From IMG/VR virus record IMGVR_UViG_3300020176_000010, positions 17,141 through 81,140 of that record: a DNA stretch of 64,000 nucleotides; one strand, written 5' to 3'. The DNA comes from a virus. The notes under the pieces were generated by a model that made no database searches, was not told where the DNA came from, and was given only the letters and a program-made list of their open reading frames with translations. The position numbers and the translations under genes are program-made. The number at the start of each line of letters is the position of its first letter. Position 1 is the first letter of the stretch. Shown here one piece after another: positions 176 to 32,559 of this stretch.

Positions 176-3100
176 ATGGCCCAGATTACGAACTGCCTGA
201 AGCTCATCTCCCGCATGCCTGAGAGCGACCAGGACGCACTGGTTTCTCGACTTGACGAGCTGCAGGCTCTCGGCGTTCCTGCGCAGCGCGCACAGGTGCA
301 GGCGGCCATCGACCTGATGTCGCGCCTGGAGCGCGAGGCAAACCCGCAGGGTATTCAACGCAGCGCAGCGCGCGACGTCACCGAGACGCCGGAGTTCCGC
401 AGCTGGTTTGGCGATAGCAAGGTGGTGGATGCCGATGGCAAGCCGCTTGTCGTGTACCACGCAACCACATCGAACATTAAAAAGTTCTCGACGAAGAAGT
501 CAGCAGGCGGCTTCTACTTCACGCCAAACGCCGAAGATGCATACCCAAGCAAGCGCGGCGAAATGACGTCCGAGCGCGGTCTCAATGTGATGCCAGCCTA
601 CCTGGCCATCAACAGCCCACTGCGGACCAGCGACCCAGCCGATTGGCACAGGCTTGACGCAGACCGACGCTCCAGCATCGAGGATCGCGGATTTGACGGC
701 GTCATTGTTGAAAACGAAGACGGGTCTGTGCGCGAGTACATCGCCTTCGAGCCCAGCCAGATCAAGTCCGCCATCGGAAACCGGGGCACCTTCGACCCGG
801 CCGACCCCGACATCACCCGCAGCGCATCCCGCCTGCCCGCCGGTGTTGAAATCATCGAGGTCGATGATGGCTTCGACGCCATGCAAGACGGCAAGCGCAT
901 CGGCCGCCTGCGCGACAACCTGCCACGCGGCGCCGCTGAGCGGCTGGACGAAAACGCCAGCGTCGACATCGTCAAGGTCGAGAACGAGTTCAAGGGCCAA
1001 GGTGTTGGCGCGGCCCTGTACGACGCCTTCTACGAGAAGCACGGCGGCCGCATCGCGCCATCCGGCAAGACCTCGCCAGAGGCCTGGGCCCTGTGGAAGC
1101 GCAAGTTCCCTCAGAAGGTGCAGGAGTTCGTGCAGGCCGAAGCTCAGCGCATCCGCGACGGCGCAGACCCATTCATGGTCATGCGCAACATCACCGACAA
1201 GGACGTAGCGCGCGACGTGGCCATTGCGGCGGGCGACAACGTTATCCGCAGCGTGGCGCGGAATGTGGTCGATAGCGCCGAGTTCAAGCGCTGGTTCGGC
1301 GACAGTAAGGTGGCGGATGCCGAGGGTAAGCCGCTGGTGGTGTATCACGGCAGCCGATACAACGCCGACATCAAGAGGTTCAGCGCAGCAAAGTCCGAGC
1401 AATCGGCGGCGGAGCGCGGAATCTACTTTACCGACAGCGCAGATCATGCAGATCAATACGCGAGCCAGTGGGGAGACGCCAGCCCAGAAGACGGCGGCTC
1501 AATTTACCCCGTCTATCTGAAGATTGAAAACCCCTACGTTTCCAATGCGTGGGAGTGGAACATGGGCACAGACATCACGCCAGCCCAAGCTCGCAAACGA
1601 GGGCATGATGGCTACGTGATTCAAAACCACGAGGGCGGCACAACCTACATCGCCTTCCGCCCCGAGCAGATCAAGAGCGCCATCGGCAACCGCGGCACGT
1701 TCGACCCATCCGACACCGACATCACGCGCAGCGCCGCGCGCCCCGAATTCTTCAGCCAGCTGCAGCGCTCCATCGAACAAGTGCCAGACCGCCTGGCCAC
1801 CATGTCTGCGCCACAGTGGAAGCTCTGGCTTGACGCCAATGCAGCCAAGCTGGGCGTAAAGAAGGACGAGATTGAGTGGTCAACAATCAAGGATTACTTG
1901 ACACTTCGTGGCAAGGACAAGGTCACGCGCGACGAGTTGGCGGCATACCTGTCTGACAGCGGTGTGCGGGTGCGGGAGGTTGTTCTTGGTGGCGGCGGCA
2001 CTGAAAAGGTAACCTTGGTTCGAGACTCAACCAGGCAGGACGCATGGGGAGAAGTCGTCGTCTATCGAAGCTCCGACGGGGCTTTCGTTGTCGAGAATGG
2101 AATTGGTGGGCAGAGCTGGTCGGTTCAGGATGCCGATTCATACGACAGCGACTACTCAGAAGACGATGGAAGCTACGCAGGAAGCTTCAGCTCACGCGAA
2201 GCTGTAGAGTCTTTCATCAATGGCCAGACGCAGGCCGCCGACCCATATTACTCCGGCGTTGGATCGAACCCAGCAACCAAGTATGGCGCCTATACCGTGC
2301 CCGGCGGCCCGCTCTCGCGCGATACTGAGATCCTGACCCGTGATGGCTGGATGCGGATGGATGAGGTTCAGATCGGCGACGAGGTCATGACGCGACGAGA
2401 TGAAGACGGCGGCCTGGAGTGGCAGCCAGTTGAAGCGCTGCCGACCGTTTACGCAGAAAAGCTATACCACTTCAAGAATCAATCGATCAACATGCGCGTC
2501 ACGCCATGCCACAAGATGGTAGTCAAGCGTCGGCGCAGATCAACGGGCGAGATCGTTCGCGTCACGGCAGAGCAGCTTTGGGGCATGTCGGAGATGGTAG
2601 CCCCACTCACGGGGTCATGGGGCGGCGGTGAATTCTCTGACCTGTTTGATCAAGATCCTGGAGATGTCGCTGAGCTGCTTGGGTGGTTTATTGCAGAAGG
2701 CCACTACAAGACGGAGGCGGATGGCAAGAAGTCAACCATCGGTATTGCTCAGTGCCGATCAGCAAACAGCGACAAGTGCGCCCGTATCGAGTCCCTATTG
2801 GGGAGGATGGGTATCGCCTGGAATTACTCTGGCGGTCAGTATTGGCTGGGTGTCAAGAAGATGTCTGCCGATCTGGTGCAGCTTCTGCATGCACAAGGGA
2901 AATCTGCTGAAAAGTATGTGCCTGGCTTCATGTTCAATGCGCCAGCCAGCGTCATTCAGCGCATGCTTGATGGCCTCTTGCTTGGCGATGGCTGCCTTGT
3001 AAAGCAGAATGGCCGAAAGCCTCGGTGGACATACCACACGAAATCCAAGCAGCTGGCAGATGATGTCCAGGTGCTTGCTCTTCTCGTTGGTAAACGTGGA

Positions 3101-3739
3101 TCCGTGTCTCGGCGCAAGACGGGTCTTTACACGGTCACCATCAATGATAAGCAGTGGGCGAGCATCGATGATGCGAAGCACGCGGTCGTCGATTACAACG
3201 ACATCGCGTACTGCGTCACTGTGAAGAATCACTCGATCTACGTTCGTACCAATGGCGTCGCAGCGTTCACTGGAAACTCCAACTACCGCGAGGTGCTGAT
3301 CACGTTGCCTCCGATTGGCCGGGTGAGATACACCGAGGAAAATGTCGTCGCCATCGATGACGCGGACGACCCAAATCGTTCCCGCTACTTCTGGCGCTTC
3401 AAGGTTCCAGGCAATGAGCTACAGATCTCCAAGCAGGTTTACCGCACCCAGGAGGAGGCGAAGGCCTACATCCTGAGCGAGAAGCAGCCAGAGCCTCCGG
3501 CCGACAAGAACTACCGCTCCAGCCACTGGGATGCGCTGAATGTTATCGCGCATATCAGGGTGGATGATAGGGTGGACTCCGATGGAAAAAAAGTGCTCTT
3601 TGTGAATGAGCTGCAAAGTGATTTTGGCCAGGACTATCGCAAGGCAAAAGAAGCAATCGAGAGCGCTGTTGACACCGATTTTATGGGCATCGTCGAGCGC
3701 ATGAAAAAAGCAGGCGTACTGGAGGTTGTTTGTGATTAA
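176..3739 (+). CDS. Polyvalent internal-virion protein, N-terminal part (ART, GNAT, ART, intein)
   Basis: This 1187-residue product resembles the large multi-domain polyvalent proteins that some phages package and inject with their DNA. Residues ~65-216 and ~362-521 are two copies of an ADP-ribosyltransferase-like (ART-PolyVal) module, each with a KPLVVYH core and ending in IKSAIGNRGTFDP. Between them, ~220-318 looks like a GNAT acetyltransferase with the motif KGQGVGAAL. Residues ~533-612 match a segment frequent in this family (IEWSTIKDYL, VREVVLGG). An intein fills 714-1034, and the flanking extein reads PGGPL/SNYREVLITLP. The ATG at 176 follows AAGGA. The protein stops where homologues would continue, because a GIY-YIG gene is inserted; the missing half is the gene at 4367. 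Domain names are from recall of the families. Confidence 0.85.
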   Translation: MAQITNCLKLISRMPESDQDALVSRLDELQALGVPAQRAQVQAAIDLMSRLEREANPQGIQRSAARDVTETPEFRSWFGDSKVVDADGKPLVVYHATTSNIKKFSTKKSAGGFYFTPNAEDAYPSKRGEMTSERGLNVMPAYLAINSPLRTSDPADWHRLDADRRSSIEDRGFDGVIVENEDGSVREYIAFEPSQIKSAIGNRGTFDPADPDITRSASRLPAGVEIIEVDDGFDAMQDGKRIGRLRDNLPRGAAERLDENASVDIVKVENEFKGQGVGAALYDAFYEKHGGRIAPSGKTSPEAWALWKRKFPQKVQEFVQAEAQRIRDGADPFMVMRNITDKDVARDVAIAAGDNVIRSVARNVVDSAEFKRWFGDSKVADAEGKPLVVYHGSRYNADIKRFSAAKSEQSAAERGIYFTDSADHADQYASQWGDASPEDGGSIYPVYLKIENPYVSNAWEWNMGTDITPAQARKRGHDGYVIQNHEGGTTYIAFRPEQIKSAIGNRGTFDPSDTDITRSAARPEFFSQLQRSIEQVPDRLATMSAPQWKLWLDANAAKLGVKKDEIEWSTIKDYLTLRGKDKVTRDELAAYLSDSGVRVREVVLGGGGTEKVTLVRDSTRQDAWGEVVVYRSSDGAFVVENGIGGQSWSVQDADSYDSDYSEDDGSYAGSFSSREAVESFINGQTQAADPYYSGVGSNPATKYGAYTVPGGPLSRDTEILTRDGWMRMDEVQIGDEVMTRRDEDGGLEWQPVEALPTVYAEKLYHFKNQSINMRVTPCHKMVVKRRRRSTGEIVRVTAEQLWGMSEMVAPLTGSWGGGEFSDLFDQDPGDVAELLGWFIAEGHYKTEADGKKSTIGIAQCRSANSDKCARIESLLGRMGIAWNYSGGQYWLGVKKMSADLVQLLHAQGKSAEKYVPGFMFNAPASVIQRMLDGLLLGDGCLVKQNGRKPRWTYHTKSKQLADDVQVLALLVGKRGSVSRRKTGLYTVTINDKQWASIDDAKHAVVDYNDIAYCVTVKNHSIYVRTNGVAAFTGNSNYREVLITLPPIGRVRYTEENVVAIDDADDPNRSRYFWRFKVPGNELQISKQVYRTQEEAKAYILSEKQPEPPADKNYRSSHWDALNVIAHIRVDDRVDSDGKKVLFVNELQSDFGQDYRKAKEAIESAVDTDFMGIVERMKKAGVLEVVCD
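2315..3277 (+). mobile_element. LAGLIDADG intein in the polyvalent protein
   Basis: Codons 714-1034 form a 321-residue in-frame insertion with intein features. It starts with Ser followed by RDTEILTRDGW (block A). It has TPCH (block B, TxxH). It ends with SIYVRTNGVAAFTGN before a +1 Ser (blocks F and G). The two LAGLIDADG helices LLGWFIAEG and MLDGLLLGDG mark a homing endonuclease. The penultimate residue is Gly rather than the usual His, a known variant. Removal would join PGGPL to SNYREVLITLP, restoring a strongly conserved motif of these phage proteins, which is the kind of site inteins favour. Confidence 0.92.
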
Positions 3740-9029: not shown

Positions 9030-10103
9030 CTAAACGCCGGAGATTCCTTCTGCAAGACGGCGATGTCCCGCCGCGAGAATGTTTTTTGCTGCATTCACGT
9101 CCCGGTCGTGTACCGCGCCGCAGTCGCTGCAAACCCATTCTCTTATTCGCAAACCTGCTCTACCTTTCGGACTGCTGGCGGGTATGGCCCCGCAGCACGA
9201 ACAAGTCTGGGTGGTGTAGCTTTCGTTGACTACCTCGAAGACGATACCGGCCTGCTGGCTCTTGTATTCCAACATCGTCTTCAAACTGGCCCAGCCCGCA
9301 TCCAGCGTGCTCTTGGCCATCTTGGTTTTGACCAGCTTGGCGCTGGCCACGTCGCCCACGAAGATGGCGGCGTTGTTTTTCACAAGGTTCGTGGTGAACT
9401 TATGGATTGCATCCTTGCGGCGATTCGCAATCTTGGCGTGTATCGCCTTGACGCGCTTTTTCTTCCGCGCCCGTTGCGCGACCGCCAGATGCGGCTCAAG
9501 CTCACGGAACCACCGTCCTTGCAGCTTGTCGCCGTCGCTTGTGGTGGCGCACTCTTTCAGACCCAAATCGATGCCAACAGCCGATGCCCCCTGGCTGGGA
9601 AGAGCCTCGACCTCGACGGCAACATTGAAATACCAGCGCCCACGGCTGTCTTCGTTGAACGATCCGGCTCGCAGCTCAAAGCGGCTCAGGCCATAGCTGT
9701 CCCACAGGCTGAATTTGTGCCCACCAAACTGGACTTGGCCCGACTTGTACTTGGCGTGCCCGCCCTTGAATGGAATCCAGCCAAGCGAATACTTGGGCGA
9801 CTTCGGGTTGCTGACGCGCCAGTTGAGGCGGGTCTTCTTGAACTGCTTGCGGCGTGTGGCGTACTCCACGCACACCAGTTGCACTGTGCCGCTGCCGACC
9901 GTAACGCCATCGCACCTGCTGTAGCCGGCGGTGAGCTTCTGTAGGTCGTAGGCGCTCAGCCACTTGCCACGCTCACGGATGGCGCGGCTGCTGGTTTCGT
10001 TGGCGAAGTTGAACACCTGATTCACGTCGCGCGCCATGCGCCGAAGCACACTGGCGTGCTTGTCCTTGATGCGAATCTTGAGTGTCTTCACTGCCGTCTG
10101 CAT
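9030..10103 (-). CDS. tnpB: TnpB RNA-guided nuclease of the IS605 family
   Basis: The 357-residue protein has the TnpB layout: N-terminal wedge and REC region, RuvC-I GIDLGLKE (Asp179), a basic helix (KKKRVKAIHAKIANRRKD), a four-cysteine zinc finger (CSCCG at 301, CSDCG at 325) and RuvC-III HDRDVNAAKNIL (Asp335). TnpB enzymes cut DNA beside a short target motif, guided by RNA from the element's right end. At the usual RuvC-II glutamate position this protein reads IFVGDVAS, with Gly250 instead of Glu; Glu294 in VNESYTTQT may stand in. ATG 10103 is preferred over the longer upstream frame because the family starts MQTAVKTLKIRIKDK. Confidence 0.9.
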   Translation of the reverse strand: MQTAVKTLKIRIKDKHASVLRRMARDVNQVFNFANETSSRAIRERGKWLSAYDLQKLTAGYSRCDGVTVGSGTVQLVCVEYATRRKQFKKTRLNWRVSNPKSPKYSLGWIPFKGGHAKYKSGQVQFGGHKFSLWDSYGLSRFELRAGSFNEDSRGRWYFNVAVEVEALPSQGASAVGIDLGLKECATTSDGDKLQGRWFRELEPHLAVAQRARKKKRVKAIHAKIANRRKDAIHKFTTNLVKNNAAIFVGDVASAKLVKTKMAKSTLDAGWASLKTMLEYKSQQAGIVFEVVNESYTTQTCSCCGAIPASSPKGRAGLRIREWVCSDCGAVHDRDVNAAKNILAAGHRRLAEGISGV

Positions 10104-10167
10104 GGCGTTATTGTGGCACGAAAATACGACGCTTGCAATCTGTTCTCGTGCCACGGATAATTCGGGC

Positions 10168-10329
10168 ATGGAAGAACGAAAAAAGACCGGGCGCCCGCCT
10201 GTCGCGCCGGATAAGGAATTGGTGCATGGCACGCTGCGGCTCACGCGCTCGCAGTGGGAAAAGGTTCGCATAGCTGGTGTTCCTGCACTACGGCTGCTGA
10301 TTGATCGATGGCGCCCGAAGAAGCCCTGA
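10168..10329 (+). CDS. Small basic protein divergent from tnpB
   Basis: This 53-residue protein starts MEERKKTGRPPVAPDKE and continues TLRLTRSQWEKVRIAG. The second part looks like a short strand followed by a helix, as in ribbon-helix-helix DNA-binding proteins. Similar GRPP-x-RLT proteins often sit divergently beside IS605-type tnpB genes (recall). It lies within the element, between the tnpB start and the left-end hairpin. A regulatory or accessory role for the transposon is an inference. Confidence 0.6.
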   Translation: MEERKKTGRPPVAPDKELVHGTLRLTRSQWEKVRIAGVPALRLLIDRWRPKKP

Positions 10330-10386
10330 CGGGCTTCGCGCTTTCCTTCCCCGGCCTGAAGGCCGAGGCTTGACGCGCATTCTTGG

Positions 10387-10953
10387 TCACGGATGCGGGT
10401 CATACACAAAGTCCTGCTTGCTCTTTGGCTCTTCTGATTTCAGGTGGCGCTCGATCTTCGCGGTGGCTGTGATGTGCATTCCAGACATGTAGCCATTAAT
10501 GCTCACGGGGTGTACTGTGATCAGCTTTTGCGAGTCGATGAAGTAGGCCTGTACGCCTCCTTGCGTGATGATATTCAGCCGACCAAACAGGTCGCCAGGC
10601 CCCCACCCCGCGGTGCCGAGATACTGGGTGATAGTGTCGCGAAGCGCTTCGTCAATCTGGCGCGCGATGCGCATGCCGAGCTGACTTGATATCTCATTGC
10701 TGACGTCGACAATACCCCGCGAATTTGGGACGCTCTCGACGCGGAATACTTCAATACCAAGACCCGCCGCGTACCCCAGAACCCCCTCAACAGCGCGCTG
10801 TTCCATGCCCTGCTGAAAAAGAAGAAGCGTCGCGCCGCGGCAGCCGGCCATATCGGATGGCACTCGCACCATTCGGTATTTCTGTATAAACATCTTCTGC
10901 GCAAACATTTCTGCAGTAATCGTGTTCCGCGCGCAAATCAAAAGCTGACTCAT
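10387..10953 (-). CDS. Hypothetical phage protein
   Basis: 188 residues with no domain I recognise. It has a mixed alpha/beta look with a Gly-rich central part (GYAAGLGIEVFRV, GTAGWGPGDLFGRL) and a C-terminal stretch HITATAKIERHLKSEE. It is the last gene of the leftward operon starting at 13358. Its ATG overlaps the stop of the 98-aa gene as ATGA. Its TGA lies 13 bases before the TnpB element, so the insertion did not damage it. Confidence 0.7.
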   Translation of the reverse strand: MSQLLICARNTITAEMFAQKMFIQKYRMVRVPSDMAGCRGATLLLFQQGMEQRAVEGVLGYAAGLGIEVFRVESVPNSRGIVDVSNEISSQLGMRIARQIDEALRDTITQYLGTAGWGPGDLFGRLNIITQGGVQAYFIDSQKLITVHPVSINGYMSGMHITATAKIERHLKSEEPKSKQDFVYDPHP

Positions 10954-20213: not shown

Positions 20214-21017
20214 TCACACAGCCACCGGCATGGGAACGAAATCCCGAGGCGTGTACCCGACGATGCGGAAGTCGTCGATGGTGTACCCGTCGATGTCCGT
20301 GTTGTCCGTCAGGATCTCGAGCTGGGCTCTATCGCCCCACACGGGCCCGGCCTCCACAACCTTGCGCATCTGCTCGACGTGGTTCAAGTAGATGTGCGCG
20401 TCGCCGTAGTTGAACACCAGGCGGCGCGGCTTTCGACCTGTGGCGCGAGCATAGAGATGTAGGAGTAGGGCGTACGCGCTTATGTTGAATGGAGCCCCAA
20501 GGGCGATGTCCCAGCTGCGCTGGTAGACCTGCATGTCGAGCCACTCGTCTCCGCCTGCGTAGCACTGGTGCCAGGCATGGCATGGGGGTAGGGCCATGTA
20601 CGGAATCTCCGATACGTGCCACGCTGTTACGATGTGCCGCCTTCCATGCGGGTCTTTCTTGATGCCGTCGATCAGCCCGGCAACCTGATCAATCTCCTCT
20701 CCGCGCGGCCCGACAAAGCACCTCCAGACGGAGCCATAGACTGGCCCAAGGTCTCCACCCTTGTTGGCCCATGGAGTCCACAGCTTGCTTCCGCGATCCT
20801 CGAGCCACTTGACATTTGTCTGCCCAGCCAAGAAGAAAAGCATTTCAAGAAACGCTGTGCGCCACCGCGTCTCCTTTGCCGTCACCAGCGGGAAGCGATG
20901 GCGCAAATCCCACTCAATGCTGCCACCAAAGATGCTGAGCGTGCCGACGCCTGTGCGATCTTTCCGCTCCTCGCCGGTCATGAGGATATTCTGTGCGAGC
21001 TCAATGTAATTCTGCAT
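20214..21017 (-). CDS. thyA: Thymidylate synthase
   Basis: 267 residues. It converts dUMP to dTMP using methylene-tetrahydrofolate, releasing dihydrofolate. Visible signatures are ERKDRTGVGTLSIFGG, the catalytic Cys in LPPCHAWHQCY (family PCH), QRSWDIALGAPFNISAYALL, and the C-terminal APMAV-type end read as VPMPVAV. ATG 21017 is preferred; a TTG three codons upstream is possible. Its stop lies 28 bases from the operator at 20172. It pairs functionally with the DfrB-like domain at 24138. Confidence 0.96.
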   Translation of the reverse strand: MQNYIELAQNILMTGEERKDRTGVGTLSIFGGSIEWDLRHRFPLVTAKETRWRTAFLEMLFFLAGQTNVKWLEDRGSKLWTPWANKGGDLGPVYGSVWRCFVGPRGEEIDQVAGLIDGIKKDPHGRRHIVTAWHVSEIPYMALPPCHAWHQCYAGGDEWLDMQVYQRSWDIALGAPFNISAYALLLHLYARATGRKPRRLVFNYGDAHIYLNHVEQMRKVVEAGPVWGDRAQLEILTDNTDIDGYTIDDFRIVGYTPRDFVPMPVAV

Positions 21018-21055
21018 ATCGTCCAATCAGCTGTTGTTGCAATAAATTCTATTCG

Positions 21056-23079: not shown

Positions 23080-23635
23080 GCTGACCTCCTTTGATGCCGT
23101 GTTCGGCTTCTGTTGTGCGAAGCAGCCGCAGCATGTCGTCCTTTTCTTGATCGTCTAGCGACCACCCCATGGAGTCGATGAGCGCATATGCCTTGCAATC
23201 CGGCAGCGGCTCCCTCGCAGCTGGCTGCGTGACGCCCCGAACAAAGGCCATCGCATCCAAGATGGCGGAGTAGGCATCTGGGTGTTGCGACTCGTCAATA
23301 AAGCCGCTGCCCTCAAGGATCTTTGAGAGGTTGTGTAGACTCCAGTAGAGGTCTTCGCTTGACTCCCGTGCAACTGGCTGACTTGCCATCAACCTTGCGT
23401 TCTCATTCTCCAGCCGCGCAATCTCTGTTCGCAGCAAACAATAGCCGCTCATGTCTTCATGGGGGTGGCTGCGGGTGCAATCTGCTGGCTGTGATGCGCC
23501 CCACTTTTCGAGGGCTGCGCGGGCGAATTCCACTTCACCCTCAAACCAAACTTCACCTGAGCTGAATTGTGCAAAGGCTTTTAAGTGTTGTTGCGCCAGC
23601 GCCAGAATCTCCGCATCGCTCGGTGTGTTGCTCAT
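23072..23635 (-). CDS. Hypothetical modular phage protein
   Basis: 187 residues, acidic and helical, with RLENENARLMASQPVAR marking a short coiled coil and SQPVARESSEDLYWSLHNLSK after it. The SQPVAR and TQPAAREP linkers resemble those of the proteins at 24138 and 30313. It overlaps the HNH gene upstream by four bases. No function recognised. Confidence 0.6.
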   Translation of the reverse strand: MSNTPSDAEILALAQQHLKAFAQFSSGEVWFEGEVEFARAALEKWGASQPADCTRSHPHEDMSGYCLLRTEIARLENENARLMASQPVARESSEDLYWSLHNLSKILEGSGFIDESQHPDAYSAILDAMAFVRGVTQPAAREPLPDCKAYALIDSMGWSLDDQEKDDMLRLLRTTEAEHGIKGGQHG

Positions 23636-24141
23636 GGTGTGTCTCCTGTGTGTAAAGGAGAGTATGGAGAGTATTCACCTTTTATCCTTATGGATGCCTC
23701 CCTGTAGCGCTCCCACGCGGCTTCCGGTGTTTTGAACGTTCCCAAGTGAATCACCTTTCTGCAGTGACTAATAGTGGCTTTGTATTTGCCATTAGCCAAC
23801 CTAGAAACTCCGCGAAAACCACTTTGGCTTTTTGTCTTCACAATGTTTGCACTGTTCTGGCTGCAATTTGAAGGCCTCAAGTTGCAAATGCGGTTATCCA
23901 GCCTGTTTCTATTTATGTGGTCTAAAAACATGGGTGGCTTCTCCCCATAAAAAATCATCCACGCGACACGATGTACTAAATAGGTTTTCCCATGGCATAT
24001 GACCTTTCTGTATCCGTGTCGATCGAAGCTGCCAGCGACTATTCCCTTTTTGTTGTGGCCTCGCTGAATACGCCATCTAAGCTCGCCACTTTCAGGGTCG
24101 TAAACAAAGCAGGAGCGCAAGAGTTCAATCTCGTCCGTCAT
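23632..24141 (-). CDS. HNH homing endonuclease with AP2-like tail
   Basis: 169 residues. The HNH core is [20 protein letters not shown], then [15 protein letters not shown]. The C-terminal AP2-type DNA-binding part is [20 protein letters not shown] with [23 protein letters not shown] precedes the ATG at 24141. It overlaps the genes on both sides (ATGA-type), so it was fitted into the operon without breaking it. Confidence 0.9.
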
Positions 24142-25514
24142 ATTCCTCCCTGTGCGGCTAGAGCTGCGTCGATGGCAGCATCCCATTCGCACCCGCACAA
24201 ATTCACAGCAACGTACCATGCTGCGCCGTGTTTTGCGTCATTACCTTCGCGCAGCCACCGATACCGCGCAGCATCCTTCGCGTCATCACTCAGCGGCTCA
24301 GGCGCTCGCTGGGGTGCTGCTTGTTGTTTACCGATGGCTTCAGCGGCCATAACCGCAGCTTTGATCGTTGCGTTTACACAGATCAAGTCGTGAAAACGCT
24401 GAATTGCTGCGTGTAGGTCTCCGACCCTGCTAGCAGGGCCAATGAGACCAACGCTTTCCGCAAGCTCCATCGTCTTTTTGACAACGGTAGTAGGCTCCTG
24501 CGCCTCCTGCTGGGGTGCTGCCTCAGCTTCCATCAAAGCCCTTTTGAGCAGCGCAATCTCTGCCTCGCGGGATGCCAAAACACCACGCACAGAAAGCAGC
24601 ATTGCGCTCAGGGATGCCTTTTCATCGTGTGCCCAACGAGCGGCTTGAACAAACTTGCGCACAGCCTCACCGCTGACAGTCTTGCCACTCAAAAAGTCTG
24701 CGGCAGTCTTGTGGTCAAAGCCGCTATTCCCCACCCCTGGCGCTGCCTCGGGTGCGGCTTGCTGCTCTGCTTGTGTGTGTAATGCTGCACAAAGCTGCAT
24801 ACCGTTCACCGCCTCAATTGCGGCAGCCCACACGGTTCGAGGATCGGGGTTCCCCTTGTACGGGCACCAATCGTCAAACATTTGCTGTTCTTCAAGTGGC
24901 GAGATAGTCAACGGCTCCCCTGGCGCTGCCTTGGGGGCGGCTTGCTCCATGCGCAGTGCATGGGTGCGGTCTGTGAAGTTGCGGGCTTGTTCGGTGGTGT
25001 AAAGCGTGCGCTTTGGGTGCATCGACGCATGGAATGACTGGTGCGATGGCTCCACCCGCCACCCAACGATTGCGTCTCCGTGTTCGCATGCTTTGAGCTC
25101 CGCAATCTGGTGGGTAGTTGGCTCAGGCAGCTCCGCATAAACCGCGCCGGATTCGGATGTGATAGCTGACTTCTCTGCCTGCGCCACCTCGACAAGCTCC
25201 AGCGCTGCGGCCGGGTATATCTGAACGGAGCCGCGCTCCGTGTTGCTCTCCACTGCATAACCTTCAGGTGCGAGGGCGGTGGAGTACGTGCCAACGACGC
25301 GCCCTGTCCACTGGCTGCCCTTGACCTTGGTGACCAGGACGCCAACTTTGAACTTGGCTGCTGGCGCTGCGCTGAGCGCATGCACACCGCTCAATGCCTT
25401 GATCACTGCCTTGCGCGCCGCCTCGGTCTTGGCGTTGTAGGTCGCGCATCCGCAGCGGTGCCGCGTCTCTGCGTATTCGTCGATCAGCTCGATCAGCGTC
25501 TTGGTGTTGCTCAT
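24138..25514 (-). CDS. Modular protein carrying a DfrB/R67-like dihydrofolate reductase domain
   Basis: 458 residues. Residues ~54-108 match the type II (R67) dihydrofolate reductase SH3 barrel: [23 protein letters not shown] and the active-site motif [12 protein letters not shown] (VQIY at 97-100). R67 works as a homotetramer that is insensitive to trimethoprim. The N-terminus ([20 protein letters not shown]) and the C-terminus ([15 protein letters not shown], then [10 protein letters not shown]) are common phage modules joined by Ala/Pro/Gln-rich linkers. A DHFR domain in the same cluster as thyA makes metabolic sense. Whether it is catalytic is untested. Confidence 0.8.
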
Positions 25515-26723: not shown

Positions 26724-26750
26724 TTTCAACTCCTTGTTGTTGATGATTCA

Positions 26751-26779: not shown

Positions 26780-26802
26780 AGAAAGTGTGTGCGGCAGGCA
26801 AC

Positions 26803-26825
26803 AAAAAGCCCGGACTTGCCGGGCT
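26803..26825 (-). terminator. Intrinsic terminator of the large non-coding RNA
   Basis: On the minus strand, AGCCCGG-caagt-CCGGGCT is followed by TTTTT. It ends leftward transcription from the 27-28.5 kb region and insulates the promoter at 26751. Confidence 0.85.
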
Positions 26826-27737
26826 TAGTGTCTTTGACGTAGTTTGTGCTGCAGTATTAACGATTCATAGGCATTGCTCCTTGGGGTGCTGATGATGGTC
26901 GCTTCAAATAAAGAAGCTCCATTCTCTACAGCTCAAGACCCGTGTCAATAGGGGTTGATGGCGGCCGGCGCTGAACTCCGGCATCTCTTAGACGAACGGC
27001 CCATTTGGGCCATACCCGGGCCAGTTTCCGGGATCTCCCCATGCGGGGAATCTTTACTGGAGAAGCCCTTTTGTATCAGGGGCGCATCAGCCTGCGGATT
27101 CACCATCATTGAAGCGGGCCGGACGGCCATTCCCGGCTATGACACTGTTTGACGTGCCTCACAAGCCATGCCTCCCGCGCTTTCGCGCCGCCTGGAGCAT
27201 GAACTCCAATTCTTCCCCGGGTATCGACTACCGGCTTCTCGGCTGTTTTGCGACCCCGTTGCAGGTTTCCCGCACTTCGTCGCGTCCGCTTCAATGATGG
27301 CCCTCGTCTTTCCGAGGCGTCTCCTGCCGCGAGTGCACCAGCCGAAGCCGAGGCGTCGCTAAGTTGCAAGCATCGTGGTCAGGACACCACCAGCGTCACA
27401 GGTGCAACTCCCGCTGACCGTTATCCACTCTATGTTTCAGGTCAGAAAGCCAAACCCCTTTCGGGTTGTGGAGGCTGGATTCACCATCGTGGCGGAGCAC
27501 TGCCCGACGGGTTGCAAGCAGGCCAGGCTGCAAGAACCCACAATGCTCCGACACGATGGCTCTGCTTTCGCAGAAATCGTGGCGGTGTTTTTCAATCCAC
27601 CGCTGCCCCAGATGCTTGGGCCTTATCGCCGTGCTCGCCCGTTTTCTGGCACTTCGTCTTCGGTACTCGCCGAGCTTTCCCTACTGGCTTCGCCATACTT
27701 CCACGACGGTCCGCACTCTTTTGCGCTCCGCCGCCAG

Positions 27738-28367
27738 TTAGGCGGCAATGCGATCATCACTCATCCTTGGCATGTGAGCGTGGTAGTTGCTCAGTATTGC
27801 CAGCTCGTTTGCATAGAAGCTCCTACGCCTCTCTACAAAGATGCCCTCATCGTGGTTTGACAAGCGGCCGGATTTTCCACTTACTCCAATAATGTCTATC
27901 AGCTTCGACTCAAGCATCAATGCTTCGAGCTCTGTGAGCCCATCCCTCATGATGACGGGCACAACCCTGTGGCCAGAATCCTGAATTCTCTGCTTCACCT
28001 TTCTGTGGAGGCCATTTCTGTTCATGTTGAGCGCCCTATCTCCAGCCCCCTTGCCTATGTAAAATGGGTTGAACTCGGCCCCAAGCGATGCCAAGAATGT
28101 TGAAACTGGGTGCGCTCCTGCACGTATCGGCTTCGATGAATCGCAGTGTGCATACACGTAGAACTTACGCTCATCTGATAGTCGAACGGACTCGTATATC
28201 GAGCTGATGTCACAGTCCCAGATTGCGTTCGCAGCCTCAAACTTCCTCTTGTAGTCTTTATTCTTGCTTACCGGGCGAAGACATCCGGCCGCAGATTTCA
28301 GCTGGTTAATTGCCCGCACGATTGAGTCCAGGTCATCAAGGTCTACTGAGAAATTCTTGATCTTCAT
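27738..28367 (-). CDS. GIY-YIG homing endonuclease inside the structured RNA
   Basis: 209 residues. The nuclease core is KFYVYAHCDSSKPIRAG, then FNPFYIGKGAGDRAL and the catalytic Glu helix LTELEALMLESKLIDIIG. An N-terminal ~85 residues are specific to this protein. ATG 28367 lacks a clear ribosome site. The stop codon lies in the loop of a perfect GCCGCC/GGCGGC hairpin at 27730-27746, so coding and RNA structure meet there. It is unlike the GIY-YIG gene at 3732 in length and accessory domains, so it is a separate invasion. Confidence 0.85.
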   Translation of the reverse strand: MKIKNFSVDLDDLDSIVRAINQLKSAAGCLRPVSKNKDYKRKFEAANAIWDCDISSIYESVRLSDERKFYVYAHCDSSKPIRAGAHPVSTFLASLGAEFNPFYIGKGAGDRALNMNRNGLHRKVKQRIQDSGHRVVPVIMRDGLTELEALMLESKLIDIIGVSGKSGRLSNHDEGIFVERRRSFYANELAILSNYHAHMPRMSDDRIAA

Positions 28368-28528
28368 GCTGCTACTTCGATCACGGAATCGGGCTCTCGC
28401 GAACCGGATTTCGTGATGCACATCTTGCGATGTGCGCCACGGCTGCCGACGCATGTAGGGATGCAGCGCTCCCCAGGAGATCCCCACCTCTCGGTGGCCG
28501 GATGCGTCTACCGGTGTGGACTGATCAA

Positions 28529-28557
28529 AGTATAGCCGCAGCTGCAACAAAAAACGC
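28529..28557 (-). promoter_or_regulatory. Candidate promoter for the large RNA
   Basis: On the minus strand a -10-like TATACT (28529-28534) lies just before the structured region. No good -35 is visible; GCGTTT at 17 bases is the best. A CAAC half-site with a following A-run (28546-28552) resembles the upstream block of the sister promoters. Confidence 0.4.
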
Positions 28558-28739
28558 GCCAGCAAAACATTTTTATGTGAACTTGTTGCAAAGACGCACT
28601 GCCGTCGCAGCCATTTGGCTCGAGCTCTCGACAAGCGGCCAGCCGTCGGTGCATGCGCCGCGGCAACAAGGATCACTCAGCGCAGCCGAATTGCCCAGCC
28701 AATCCGCACACCCGTGGCCATAATACAACACAACAAACC

Positions 28740-28769
28740 GTTGGCGCGGCAACAATTACAAAATACAAT
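28740..28769 (+). promoter_or_regulatory. Rightward promoter with GTTG-N6-CAAC operator
   Basis: -35 TTGGCG (28741-28746) and -10 TACAAT (28764-28769) are 17 bases apart, and GTTG-N6-CAAC (28740-28753) overlaps the -35 box. It leads the rightward operon starting at 28817, divergent from the large RNA. Confidence 0.75.
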
Positions 28770-28816
28770 GCCTACTGCGCTGCAGGCGTGCAGTGCATTT
28801 GCAACAAGGAGTATTC

Positions 28817-29179
28817 ATGACATTTGTAAACATCCACGGCCAGCCGATCGACATCGCAGCGCTGGTCACCAAGAAGACCTCCAAGGTGAAGATGCCAACT
28901 GTCTCCGTGCACAAGGGCTTCCAGCCCATGGGCTACAGCCAGGAGCAGATCTCCGAAGCCCGCCGCAAGCACGAGTCCGACAGCCGGCTCGAGATGCAGG
29001 CCGGTCGCCCGCCGCTGGAGCCATTCTCGCTCGATGGGTTCCTGCGCAAGGCAAGGCCGAAGAAAATCGGCAAGCCGCTCTCTTCACACGACGCAGCAAG
29101 CGTGGCCGCAAGCCTTGCCGAAAAAGGCGGATGGGTGAAGGTCCATGTTGTTGAGCTGAAGAAGGGTGGAGCAGCATGA
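28817..29179 (+). CDS. Hypothetical protein, first gene of the rightward operon
   Basis: 120 residues from ATG 28817 with AAGGAG five bases upstream. It has a basic helical middle (GYSQEQISEARRKHESDSRL) and a C-terminal part SSHDAASVAASLAEKGGWVK. No domain is recognised. It overlaps the next gene as ATGA. Confidence 0.7.
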   Translation: MTFVNIHGQPIDIAALVTKKTSKVKMPTVSVHKGFQPMGYSQEQISEARRKHESDSRLEMQAGRPPLEPFSLDGFLRKARPKKIGKPLSSHDAASVAASLAEKGGWVKVHVVELKKGGAA

Positions 29180-30297
29180 CACTCACACCAAAGGGACAGA
29201 TCGACCGCGCCGGCCGCGTCAGCTTCGGTGATGCGAGCCTTGACGTGTGGGAGGACACCATGCCACCCCTGTCGGGCCTCGATGCCCACAAAAAGCGCGA
29301 CGCATGGGAGGCCGCATTCAAGCGGCAGGTCTTCGCCCGCATCATCCAGCAGCTGAACCGCATCGGCTGGACAGTCCAGAAGCCGCCAGTCAACCCGCAC
29401 GACGTGAAGCACTACGGCGGACGGGTGGCTCGGTGGGCTGCAGAGCGGCATCGCAACTGCAGCAAGGGCGACCTAACAGGCGAGCTGAAGATCAGTGGCC
29501 GCTCCATCAATTTCCAGATGTGGCAGGGCGTCAACACCCCCACCCGCCCAGACCACGGTGGTCGCTACGAAAGCGACCTCGAAGGCTGCATGCCTTACGT
29601 GCTGCGCCTGGAGATGGAGCGCACGCGCCGCCGCATCCGCGACTACCTGTGCGCGGTTTTCGCTGGCTACACTTTTGATAGCAAGCGCCGCACCATCTAC
29701 AGGCGCCCGCTACAGTTCACAGCCATGGACTTGATCGAGCAGAGCTACGCAAAGAGCTGCCACTTCAAGGGGGACATGGCCGACTACCTCAAGCGGAACG
29801 GATACACCGAGCTGCCCAGCTACAACTGCACCAGCCGCGACGGACATCGGATCCAGCACGGCCAGCGCGTCTGGTTTCAGGATTACAACGGCCGCATCTG
29901 CGAGGGCATCGCCTACTACAACATCAACAACATGTGGTGGGTGGTCACTGGACGCTACGACCGGCGCAACATCGGCACGAGCGACATCTGGGTGAAGTGC
30001 CCAGAAAACCCGCGCGTCAAACGCAACGAGCGCCAGCGCCGCAAGCGCCTGGAGGGCCTGCTGGCCGACGCCGTGAAGGCCATGGACTTCGACCGCGCGA
30101 AGGTGCTCAAGCGCATCCTTTGGCCTGAGCCCGAGCCACTGTTCCACATCATGAAGGGCGACGCCTACTTTGCGCCGAACTACTGCGGCTACCGCAGCAG
30201 CCCGATCGACGCCGGCAAGTACACCAAGGCTGAGCTGCGCCCCTACCAGGACCAGATACAGCGCGGCACCCTGCGCGCCATCCCTGCCTCAGAATAA
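29176..30297 (+). CDS. Hypothetical DNA-associated phage protein
   Basis: 373 residues, rich in Arg, Tyr and Trp. The C-terminal half has a small beta region (HGQRVWFQDYNGRICEG, then NNMWWVVTGRYDRRN) followed by a basic helix (RVKRNERQRRKRLEGLLADA). The N-terminal part reads AFKRQVFARIIQQLNRIGW. I do not recognise a family. Its place at the head of the replication-type operon suggests an early role. Confidence 0.7.
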   Translation: MTLTPKGQIDRAGRVSFGDASLDVWEDTMPPLSGLDAHKKRDAWEAAFKRQVFARIIQQLNRIGWTVQKPPVNPHDVKHYGGRVARWAAERHRNCSKGDLTGELKISGRSINFQMWQGVNTPTRPDHGGRYESDLEGCMPYVLRLEMERTRRRIRDYLCAVFAGYTFDSKRRTIYRRPLQFTAMDLIEQSYAKSCHFKGDMADYLKRNGYTELPSYNCTSRDGHRIQHGQRVWFQDYNGRICEGIAYYNINNMWWVVTGRYDRRNIGTSDIWVKCPENPRVKRNERQRRKRLEGLLADAVKAMDFDRAKVLKRILWPEPEPLFHIMKGDAYFAPNYCGYRSSPIDAGKYTKAELRPYQDQIQRGTLRAIPASE

Positions 30298-32133: not shown

Positions 32134-32559
32134 ATGAATCACGAAAACGAAGAGCAATTTGAGGCCACCTACAGGAAGCGCCTCGCGGAATCGATAGCCG
32201 AAGAGCGCTCCCATACCGAAGCCATCGAACGCATGGCGCGCGATAACGCCGAGTCAATTCGCTACCTATGGGAGCGCGGCAACGGGTACGGCGGATGGAT
32301 TCATCGCGTTCTTGCGAGCGCCGCCGGTCGCGCAACCGGGCCCGCGGGATGCGCCGACTCTGGCAGAAAGAAAAAAATTGATGGCGCACTTCGAACAAAA
32401 GTGTTTGAGCGCGATGCCTACCGATGCGTTCACTGTGGGGCGCACAAGGATCTTTCCTGCGACCACATCCTCCCAGAGTCAAAAGGCGGAGAGACAACCT
32501 TCACCAACCTGCAGACGCTATGCCGCCCGTGCAACAGCAAGAAGGGGGCGCGTCAATGA
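32134..32559 (+). CDS. HNH nuclease
   Basis: 141 residues. The C-terminal half is a canonical HNH with zinc cysteines: YRCVHCGAHKDLSCDHILPE, then GGETTFTNLQTLCRPCNSKK. The N-terminal half is helical and charged. It lacks an obvious homing DNA-binding domain, so it may be a phage nuclease rather than a homing enzyme. It overlaps the initiator-like gene as ATGA and follows the structured leader. Confidence 0.85.
   Translation: MNHENEEQFEATYRKRLAESIAEERSHTEAIERMARDNAESIRYLWERGNGYGGWIHRVLASAAGRATGPAGCADSGRKKKIDGALRTKVFERDAYRCVHCGAHKDLSCDHILPESKGGETTFTNLQTLCRPCNSKKGARQ

Follow-up and report, generated by a model that had tools for sequence, protein, structure and literature searches.

The Locus and the Proposed Transcript

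The window (the whole 64-kb stretch of DNA that we analysed, taken from an 81-kb IMG/VR virus record) contains a region bounded by leftward genes from near position 26729 and by rightward genes from near 28820. Between these two flanking operons there is no credible protein besides a GIY-YIG gene on the minus strand (27738-28367), in agreement with a preliminary description of this DNA. There are no tRNA genes in the window. The features of the region are the following.

26803..28530, minus strand: proposed transcript, a structured non-coding RNA with a homing gene inside it and an intrinsic terminator at its end, as suggested by GNRA enrichment, folding and the terminator
28529..28534, minus strand: possible -10 hexamer TATACT, from sequence only, with no good -35
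28484..28497, minus strand: hairpin CCACC-GAGA-GGTGG, from the GNRA scan
28418..28435, minus strand: hairpin GCACATC-GCAA-GATGTGC, from the GNRA scan
28380..28417, minus strand: long hairpin with a GCGA loop (28400-28397), from folding and the GNRA scan
27738..28367, minus strand: GIY-YIG homing endonuclease gene (Pfam LEM-3_GIY-YIG), inserted between the 5′ hairpins and the remainder
27560..27575, minus strand: hairpin TTCTGC-GAAA-GCAGAG, preceding helix arm A1, from the GNRA scan
27477..27560, minus strand: incomplete unit 1, helix 27560-27544/27499-27483 followed by GATGGTGAATCC, without the conserved P2/P4 part
27302..27317, minus strand: hairpin CCTCG-GAAAGA-CGAGG, preceding arm A2, an arrangement found in many homologues
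27286..27301, minus strand: arm A2 (GCCATCATTGAAGCGG), 16 bp with arm B2 (27117-27102)
27118..27285, minus strand: variable inner domain between A2 and B2, holding a GCGC-GAAA-GCGC hairpin
26952..27112, minus strand: conserved module (model R1, 56.7 bits, E = 9.4e-14; covariation in homologues)
26806..26826, minus strand: intrinsic terminator, 8 bp plus U-tract

The proposed 5′ end of the RNA is tentatively placed by the TATACT hexamer alone, which a promoter consensus scan missed. In the phage of the window, the RNA would be the leader of the leftward operon, lying ahead of the terminator, and a GIY-YIG homing gene would have landed inside it. The sequence GCNNNNGCAACAA is repeated at 28538-28807 and could provide operators between the two divergent operons. 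Elsewhere in the window, homing-type nucleases bring the kinds present in this phage to three: besides GIY-YIG, there are two HNH endonucleases (23632-24219 and 32134-32559) and a LAGLIDADG domain, which lies in an intein-like insert of a 1187-aa polyvalent protein with ADP-ribosyltransferase domains (176-3739). The window also encodes a TnpB-like protein (9030-10409, minus strand; OrfB_IS605, Cas12f1-like TNB domain), a thymidylate synthase (20214-21026) and, at 24138-25514, a protein of 458 aa whose dihydrofolate reductase domain is of the R67 type (PF06442).

Helices, GNRA Loops and a Repeated Motif

Seven GNRA tetraloop hairpins (stem of at least 4) are found on the minus strand of 26803-28530 as compared with one on the plus strand, while 300 dinucleotide shuffles gave a mean of 0.95 and a maximum of 5; one of the seven, at 28168, falls within the GIY-YIG gene. 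The minus-strand bias of these loops that the preliminary description had reported is therefore real, and its three pairings (27301-27286/27117-27102, of 16 bp; 27560-27544/27499-27483; and the hairpin around 28417-28380) as well as its minus-strand terminator are all present. The fold of 26800-27740 has a z of -4.4 on the minus strand (20 shuffles) and of -3.8 on the plus strand, and since the plus strand folds well too, folding energy alone says little. When the RNA was folded without the GIY-YIG gene, only 4 kcal/mol were gained over the two separate parts, a gain so small that the splitting of one RNA by the gene is neither proven nor excluded.

The motif GATGGTGAATCC, which had been described as duplicated after helix arms, has exactly two copies in the 64-kb window (27096-27107 and 27477-27488, minus strand), both directly trailing a helix arm, and none in 100 shuffles (expected 0.00). 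The exact spaced pair had no match in viral contigs, because homologues carry GGTGAATGCGC and different spacings.

Homologues of the RNA

Neither phages nor plasmids gave a BLAST match to the whole region. When the flanking gene at 29176-30297 was used as a query, 80 phage loci were obtained, one of which (L049) matched the RNA of the window (nhmmer E = 2e-4). L049 is a tRNA array with structured sequence between its tRNAs and has weak tmRNA matches. Two conserved strings from its alignment, GGTGAATNCGCAGGCTGA and CCGGAGNNCAGCNCCGGCCNCCA, were each found in at least 120 viral stretches, and among the matches listed, 80 loci had both in the correct order and no more than 300 nt apart. A scan of 84,980 species genomes gave 75 stretches, nearly all from Beta- and Gammaproteobacteria; the few matches from other phyla were mostly metagenome bins, and in the phylum of one such bin, assigned to Verrucomicrobiota, that bin was the one strong match in 145. 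For Enterobacteriaceae, the module was present in 13 of 149 genomes, with seven copies in one genome. The module was recovered from about 165 distinct loci in phages or prophages, and some counts are inflated by related prophage sets, which were thinned by shared 16-mers only.

A Conserved 3′ Module

The part of the RNA that is conserved among these loci is a module at its 3′ end, which in the window is composed of the following elements.

27109-27101/26963-26955, minus strand: P1, the stem closing the junction
27097-27094/27085-27082, minus strand: P2, a hairpin with loop 27093-27086
27081-26983, minus strand: P3 insert, variable, between P2 and P4
26982-26978/26968-26964, minus strand: P4, a hairpin with loop 26977-26969

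In the consensus, the order is P1 (NNNNGGTG/CACCNNNN), AAU, P2 (GCGC-AGGCUGAU-GCGC), P3 and P4 (GCCGG-AGAUCAGCA-CCGGC). By the test used for the module (P1-P2-P4, with the loops AGGCUGAU and AGAUCAG), the window carries it, with two deviations: its P4 loop reads AGUUCAGCG, and an outer pair of P2 is missing. The GGTG/CGCC stretch of P1 is still paired in the window, via G-U. Model R1, which was built on 48 diverse members with the window excluded from training, recovers nearly all viral and genome loci and gives 84.7 bits for phage HK620; it finds no second match in the window, for instance at the incomplete unit 27560-27477.

The preliminary description had proposed covariation among homologues as a check on the RNA, and the 3′ module passes it. 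Among the 48 members, 12 pairs were changed on both sides compared with 5.0 in shuffles, and there were 67 covariation cells compared with 21, a value reached by none of 500 shuffles; all covariation measures exceeded every one of the 500 shuffles as well as slid controls. We also picked 143 cores by loop and flank sequence alone, so that pairing was not a criterion. P2 was complete in 135 of them and P4 in 129. The outer pairs of P1, likewise free of selection, covary and were formed in 143, 141, 129 and 92 cores, compared with 115, 82, 71 and 63 after shuffling. Pair exchanges in P2 and P4 include ACGC/GCGT, GCGA/TCGC, GTCGG/CCGAC, GCTGG/CCAGC and GTAGG/CCTAC. Given this strong covariation, the 160-nt 3′ part is a structured RNA, and it is conserved and absent from Rfam.

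The loops of P2 (AGGCUGAU) and P4 (AGAUCAGCA) are complementary over 5-6 bases (GCUGAU, AUCAGC), and we predict from their sequences that they contact each other; as both loops are nearly invariant, this pairing shows almost no covariation and stays at the level of a prediction. A tertiary contact between the two copies of GATGGTGAATCC had been suggested earlier and is not borne out by the homologues, which instead show GGTG closing P1 and AGGCUGAU able to pair with AGAUCAGCA. GGTGAAT is, nevertheless, a real conserved element.

For the other ~900 nt, the case for a structured RNA rests on folding and GNRA loops. Searches for homologues of the 5′ part (28367-28560) and of 27574-27737 found none, and a resemblance between the 5′ part and L221 was dismissed as chance similarity in a coding region. 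Because such homologues are lacking, a fold shared by the 5′ hairpins, 27574-27737 and the module is a proposal. Thus, of the 1.1-kb structured RNA originally envisaged, the minus-strand phage RNA and its 3′ module stand, and the single full-length fold remains a proposal.

The GIY-YIG Gene as a Passenger

The product of the gene inserted into the RNA matches Pfam LEM-3_GIY-YIG with an E of 2e-5, slightly below the curated cut-off. Five viral contigs encode relatives without any match to the RNA, and the protein was therefore dropped as a bait for RNA homologues. The endonuclease is likewise missing from the homologues of the RNA. The gene does lie inside the RNA, as had been described, but it is a passenger and no regular part of it. 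Two permuted tmRNA genes (Rfam RF04321, above gathering) are abutted by relatives of this GIY-YIG protein in two of these viral contigs (L003 3001-3852 and L006 2653-3588) and, judged from these neighbours, it looks as if the endonuclease family homes into structured RNA genes.

Upstream Arms and Variable Cargo

In 71 of 136 cores, compared with 5 controls, an upstream arm A is complementary to arm B, which contains P1, and in homologues arm A is often preceded by a hairpin of the form CC..CGGAAAGACG..GG. The window keeps this order (hairpin 27317-27302, A2 27301-27286, inner domain, B2 27117-27102, module). Arms homologous to A2 are present in L274, L093, L262 and L118, and the inner domain (27118-27285) terminates in CGGCCCGCTT, as do those of L274, L262 and L118. 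The same GGTG-bearing stretch could pair either with arm A or with the strand that follows P4, and this choice of partners may act as a switch.

Two sites take up variable cargo: one separates P2 from P4, and the other lies within the long helix of arms A and B that precedes P1. T-arms of tRNAs lie inside the variable parts of some modules. The idea that every module holds a tRNA was rejected, as intact T-arms were rare both in upstream arms (6 of 124) and in P3 inserts (4 of 152). tRNA-like sequences were seen in the P3 inserts of L154 and L285 (4153-4213), the latter with D and T arms and with the anticodon arm missing. A second conserved RNA-like domain (ACGGCATATGGCACATGTGTCGCAG...) occurs upstream of the module in L110 (6413-7010) and L137, and it also stands alone, unannotated, in E. 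coli E2348/69 and in Salmonella phages of the SPN1S type.

Genomic Context and Possible Functions

The homologues sit in untranslated phage transcripts, that is, in leaders between Q and holin genes, before N, or beside tRNAs. A tRNA lies within 800 nt of 23 of 151 cores (~15%, with 0.6% for random positions), on the same strand in 21 of these, and nine tRNAs begin 8-15 nt past the module. Non-lambdoid carriers supported by R1 include PE007 (Schitoviridae) and cp21 and Magnus (Ackermannviridae), as well as phages KP591P3 and HC8A, all with same-strand tRNAs at distances between a few hundred and about 2,300 nt; KP591P3, HC8A and PE007 are of the virulent type. Terminators within 250 nt of 146 cores are mostly in the sense orientation (23 as opposed to 4 antisense).

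The explanation that we consider best, and on the whole probably correct, starts from the conserved structured module of a non-coding RNA and gives it a role as RNA alongside phage tRNAs. This role is itself a conjecture somewhat short of an even chance: the RNA would act as such rather than as a coding message, and the module would be made within untranslated phage transcripts, often carrying tRNAs, would fold unaided, and would present or protect tRNA or tRNA-like cargo. It could do so as a stable scaffold, as has been proposed for GOLLD and ROOL, or by giving tRNA precursors a defined upstream border. We favour this explanation over a leader acting in cis given the link to tRNAs, the presence of the module in non-lambdoid phages and the variety of features downstream. 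Against it, most loci lack a recognisable tRNA within 800 nt (one is present at only ~15%), and the window itself is tRNA-free.

A rather unlikely alternative, which also fits and stays alive because in lambdoid phages the module occupies antiterminated operon leaders, adjoining N, Q and terminators, is that of a cis-acting leader element, serving either in antitermination (put-like, or as an accessory to nut or qut) or in the translation or stability of the first gene. In HK620, for example, the order is pR', qut, module, tQ and holin S, and in L199 and L333, boxA and boxB are followed by the module and, ~30 nt later, by N. More generally, the genes upstream belong to several unrelated Q antiterminator families or encode S24 repressors, and those downstream are mostly holins, followed by terminase small subunits and N. 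A boxA-like string, YGCTCTTW, occupies a fixed spot in arm B in 22 of 130 cases and occurs anywhere in 120 nt in 27, compared with 0.5 after shuffling; the window and many homologues lack this string, however, and common descent may explain how often it occurs. In addition, antitermination is already available to phages that have Q or N, the feature downstream is inconstant (tRNA, N, terminator or holin), and the module also occurs near tRNAs in Schitoviridae and Ackermannviridae, whose life styles are quite different. Since it is found in such non-lambdoid phages, antitermination as the sole function was demoted.

It is less likely still that the module is a by-product or stabiliser of small regulatory RNA precursors, in which terminated leaders of lysogens would yield Hfq-binding sRNAs from their 3′ ends. 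Pas sRNAs, for instance, are abundant and terminator-ended, adjoin holin/lysozyme genes or lie near Q in lambdoid prophages, and are flanked by tRNA matches (PMC13192938); IsrJ is located immediately upstream of the module in L299, and sense-strand terminators often trail the module. Nevertheless, the module is the most conserved part and occurs without any such sRNA, and the Rfam model STnc100 had no match in the 19 loci scanned. Least probable of all is a DNA repeat that is selfish or prone to recombination and acts as a mobile cassette site, folding as single-stranded DNA and gathering tRNAs and other cargo, for even though cargo varies at two fixed sites, a genome may hold up to 7 copies and the surrounding pieces are mosaically distributed, the strand-specific terminators and same-strand tRNAs indicate RNA rather than DNA, no integrase or transposase regularly adjoins the module, and G-U pairs are in slight excess over A-C pairs (24 versus 15, a weak argument).

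Returning to the RNA that works with phage tRNAs, we suggest, as a speculation with the balance against it, a new class of modular RNA, shared by phages of Beta- and Gammaproteobacteria whether temperate or virulent, with an autonomous core, two contacting loops and interchangeable tRNA or tRNA-like cargo. It would serve the tRNA economy of the phage, and could do so by acting as a scaffold or by decoying tRNA-cutting defences. A well-defined structured RNA without an Rfam family sits in the long-studied HK620 and in many other isolated phages, and as the module is found beside tRNAs and in leaders, the role of large phage RNAs becomes testable in ordinary laboratory coliphages.

Comparison with Known Systems

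Rfam 15 gave no match in the window, and none was convincing at E <= 10; sub-threshold asX2 and Trp_leader matches in the region cover only the terminator. The module is also absent from the papers searched: its consensus strings were not found among 5.39 million papers, and open papers gave no description of it. Closed journals or unpublished catalogues could hold one, and we do not claim priority. A splicing intron, already judged unlikely in the preliminary description, was rejected, as the element is intergenic rather than within a gene and the group I and group II intron core models had no match at E <= 10.

HEARO resembles the locus in having an endonuclease ORF beside an RNA; here, however, the ORF is GIY-YIG rather than HNH/IsrB, the homologues have no endonuclease, and there is no Rfam match to HEARO. 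The put element of HK022 is a short two-hairpin element. Like put and nut, the module is a structured element within phage operon leaders, but it is a junction with complementary loops, has tRNA neighbours and occurs in phages with N or Q antitermination of their own. Pas and STnc100 are likewise intergenic RNAs near Q and holin genes with flanking tRNAs (PMC13192938), with the difference that they are short, Hfq-bound, terminator-ended sRNAs.

The resemblance to GOLLD and ROOL that had been pointed out from the start holds in style (phage-borne, large, with tRNA-associated kin) and not in sequence models, for neither Rfam model has a match in the window, be it above gathering or at E <= 10, or in L049 or L110. 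ROOL is a phage or prophage RNA of complex structure near tRNA islands (PMC12286853), and the likeness lies in the phage location, the complex structure and the tRNA neighbourhood of homologues, the difference in its unmatched Rfam model. The large RNA GOLLD, from phages or prophages, lies near tRNAs or contains them and has a conserved 3′ and a variable 5′ region (PMC12286853). The window is from a phage record and is tRNA-free, and its homologues are often near tRNAs. The RNA resembles GOLLD in being large and phage-borne, with tRNAs near such homologues and with a conserved 3′ and a variable 5′ region, but differs in its conserved core, a module of ~100-160 nt that is often the sole conserved part.
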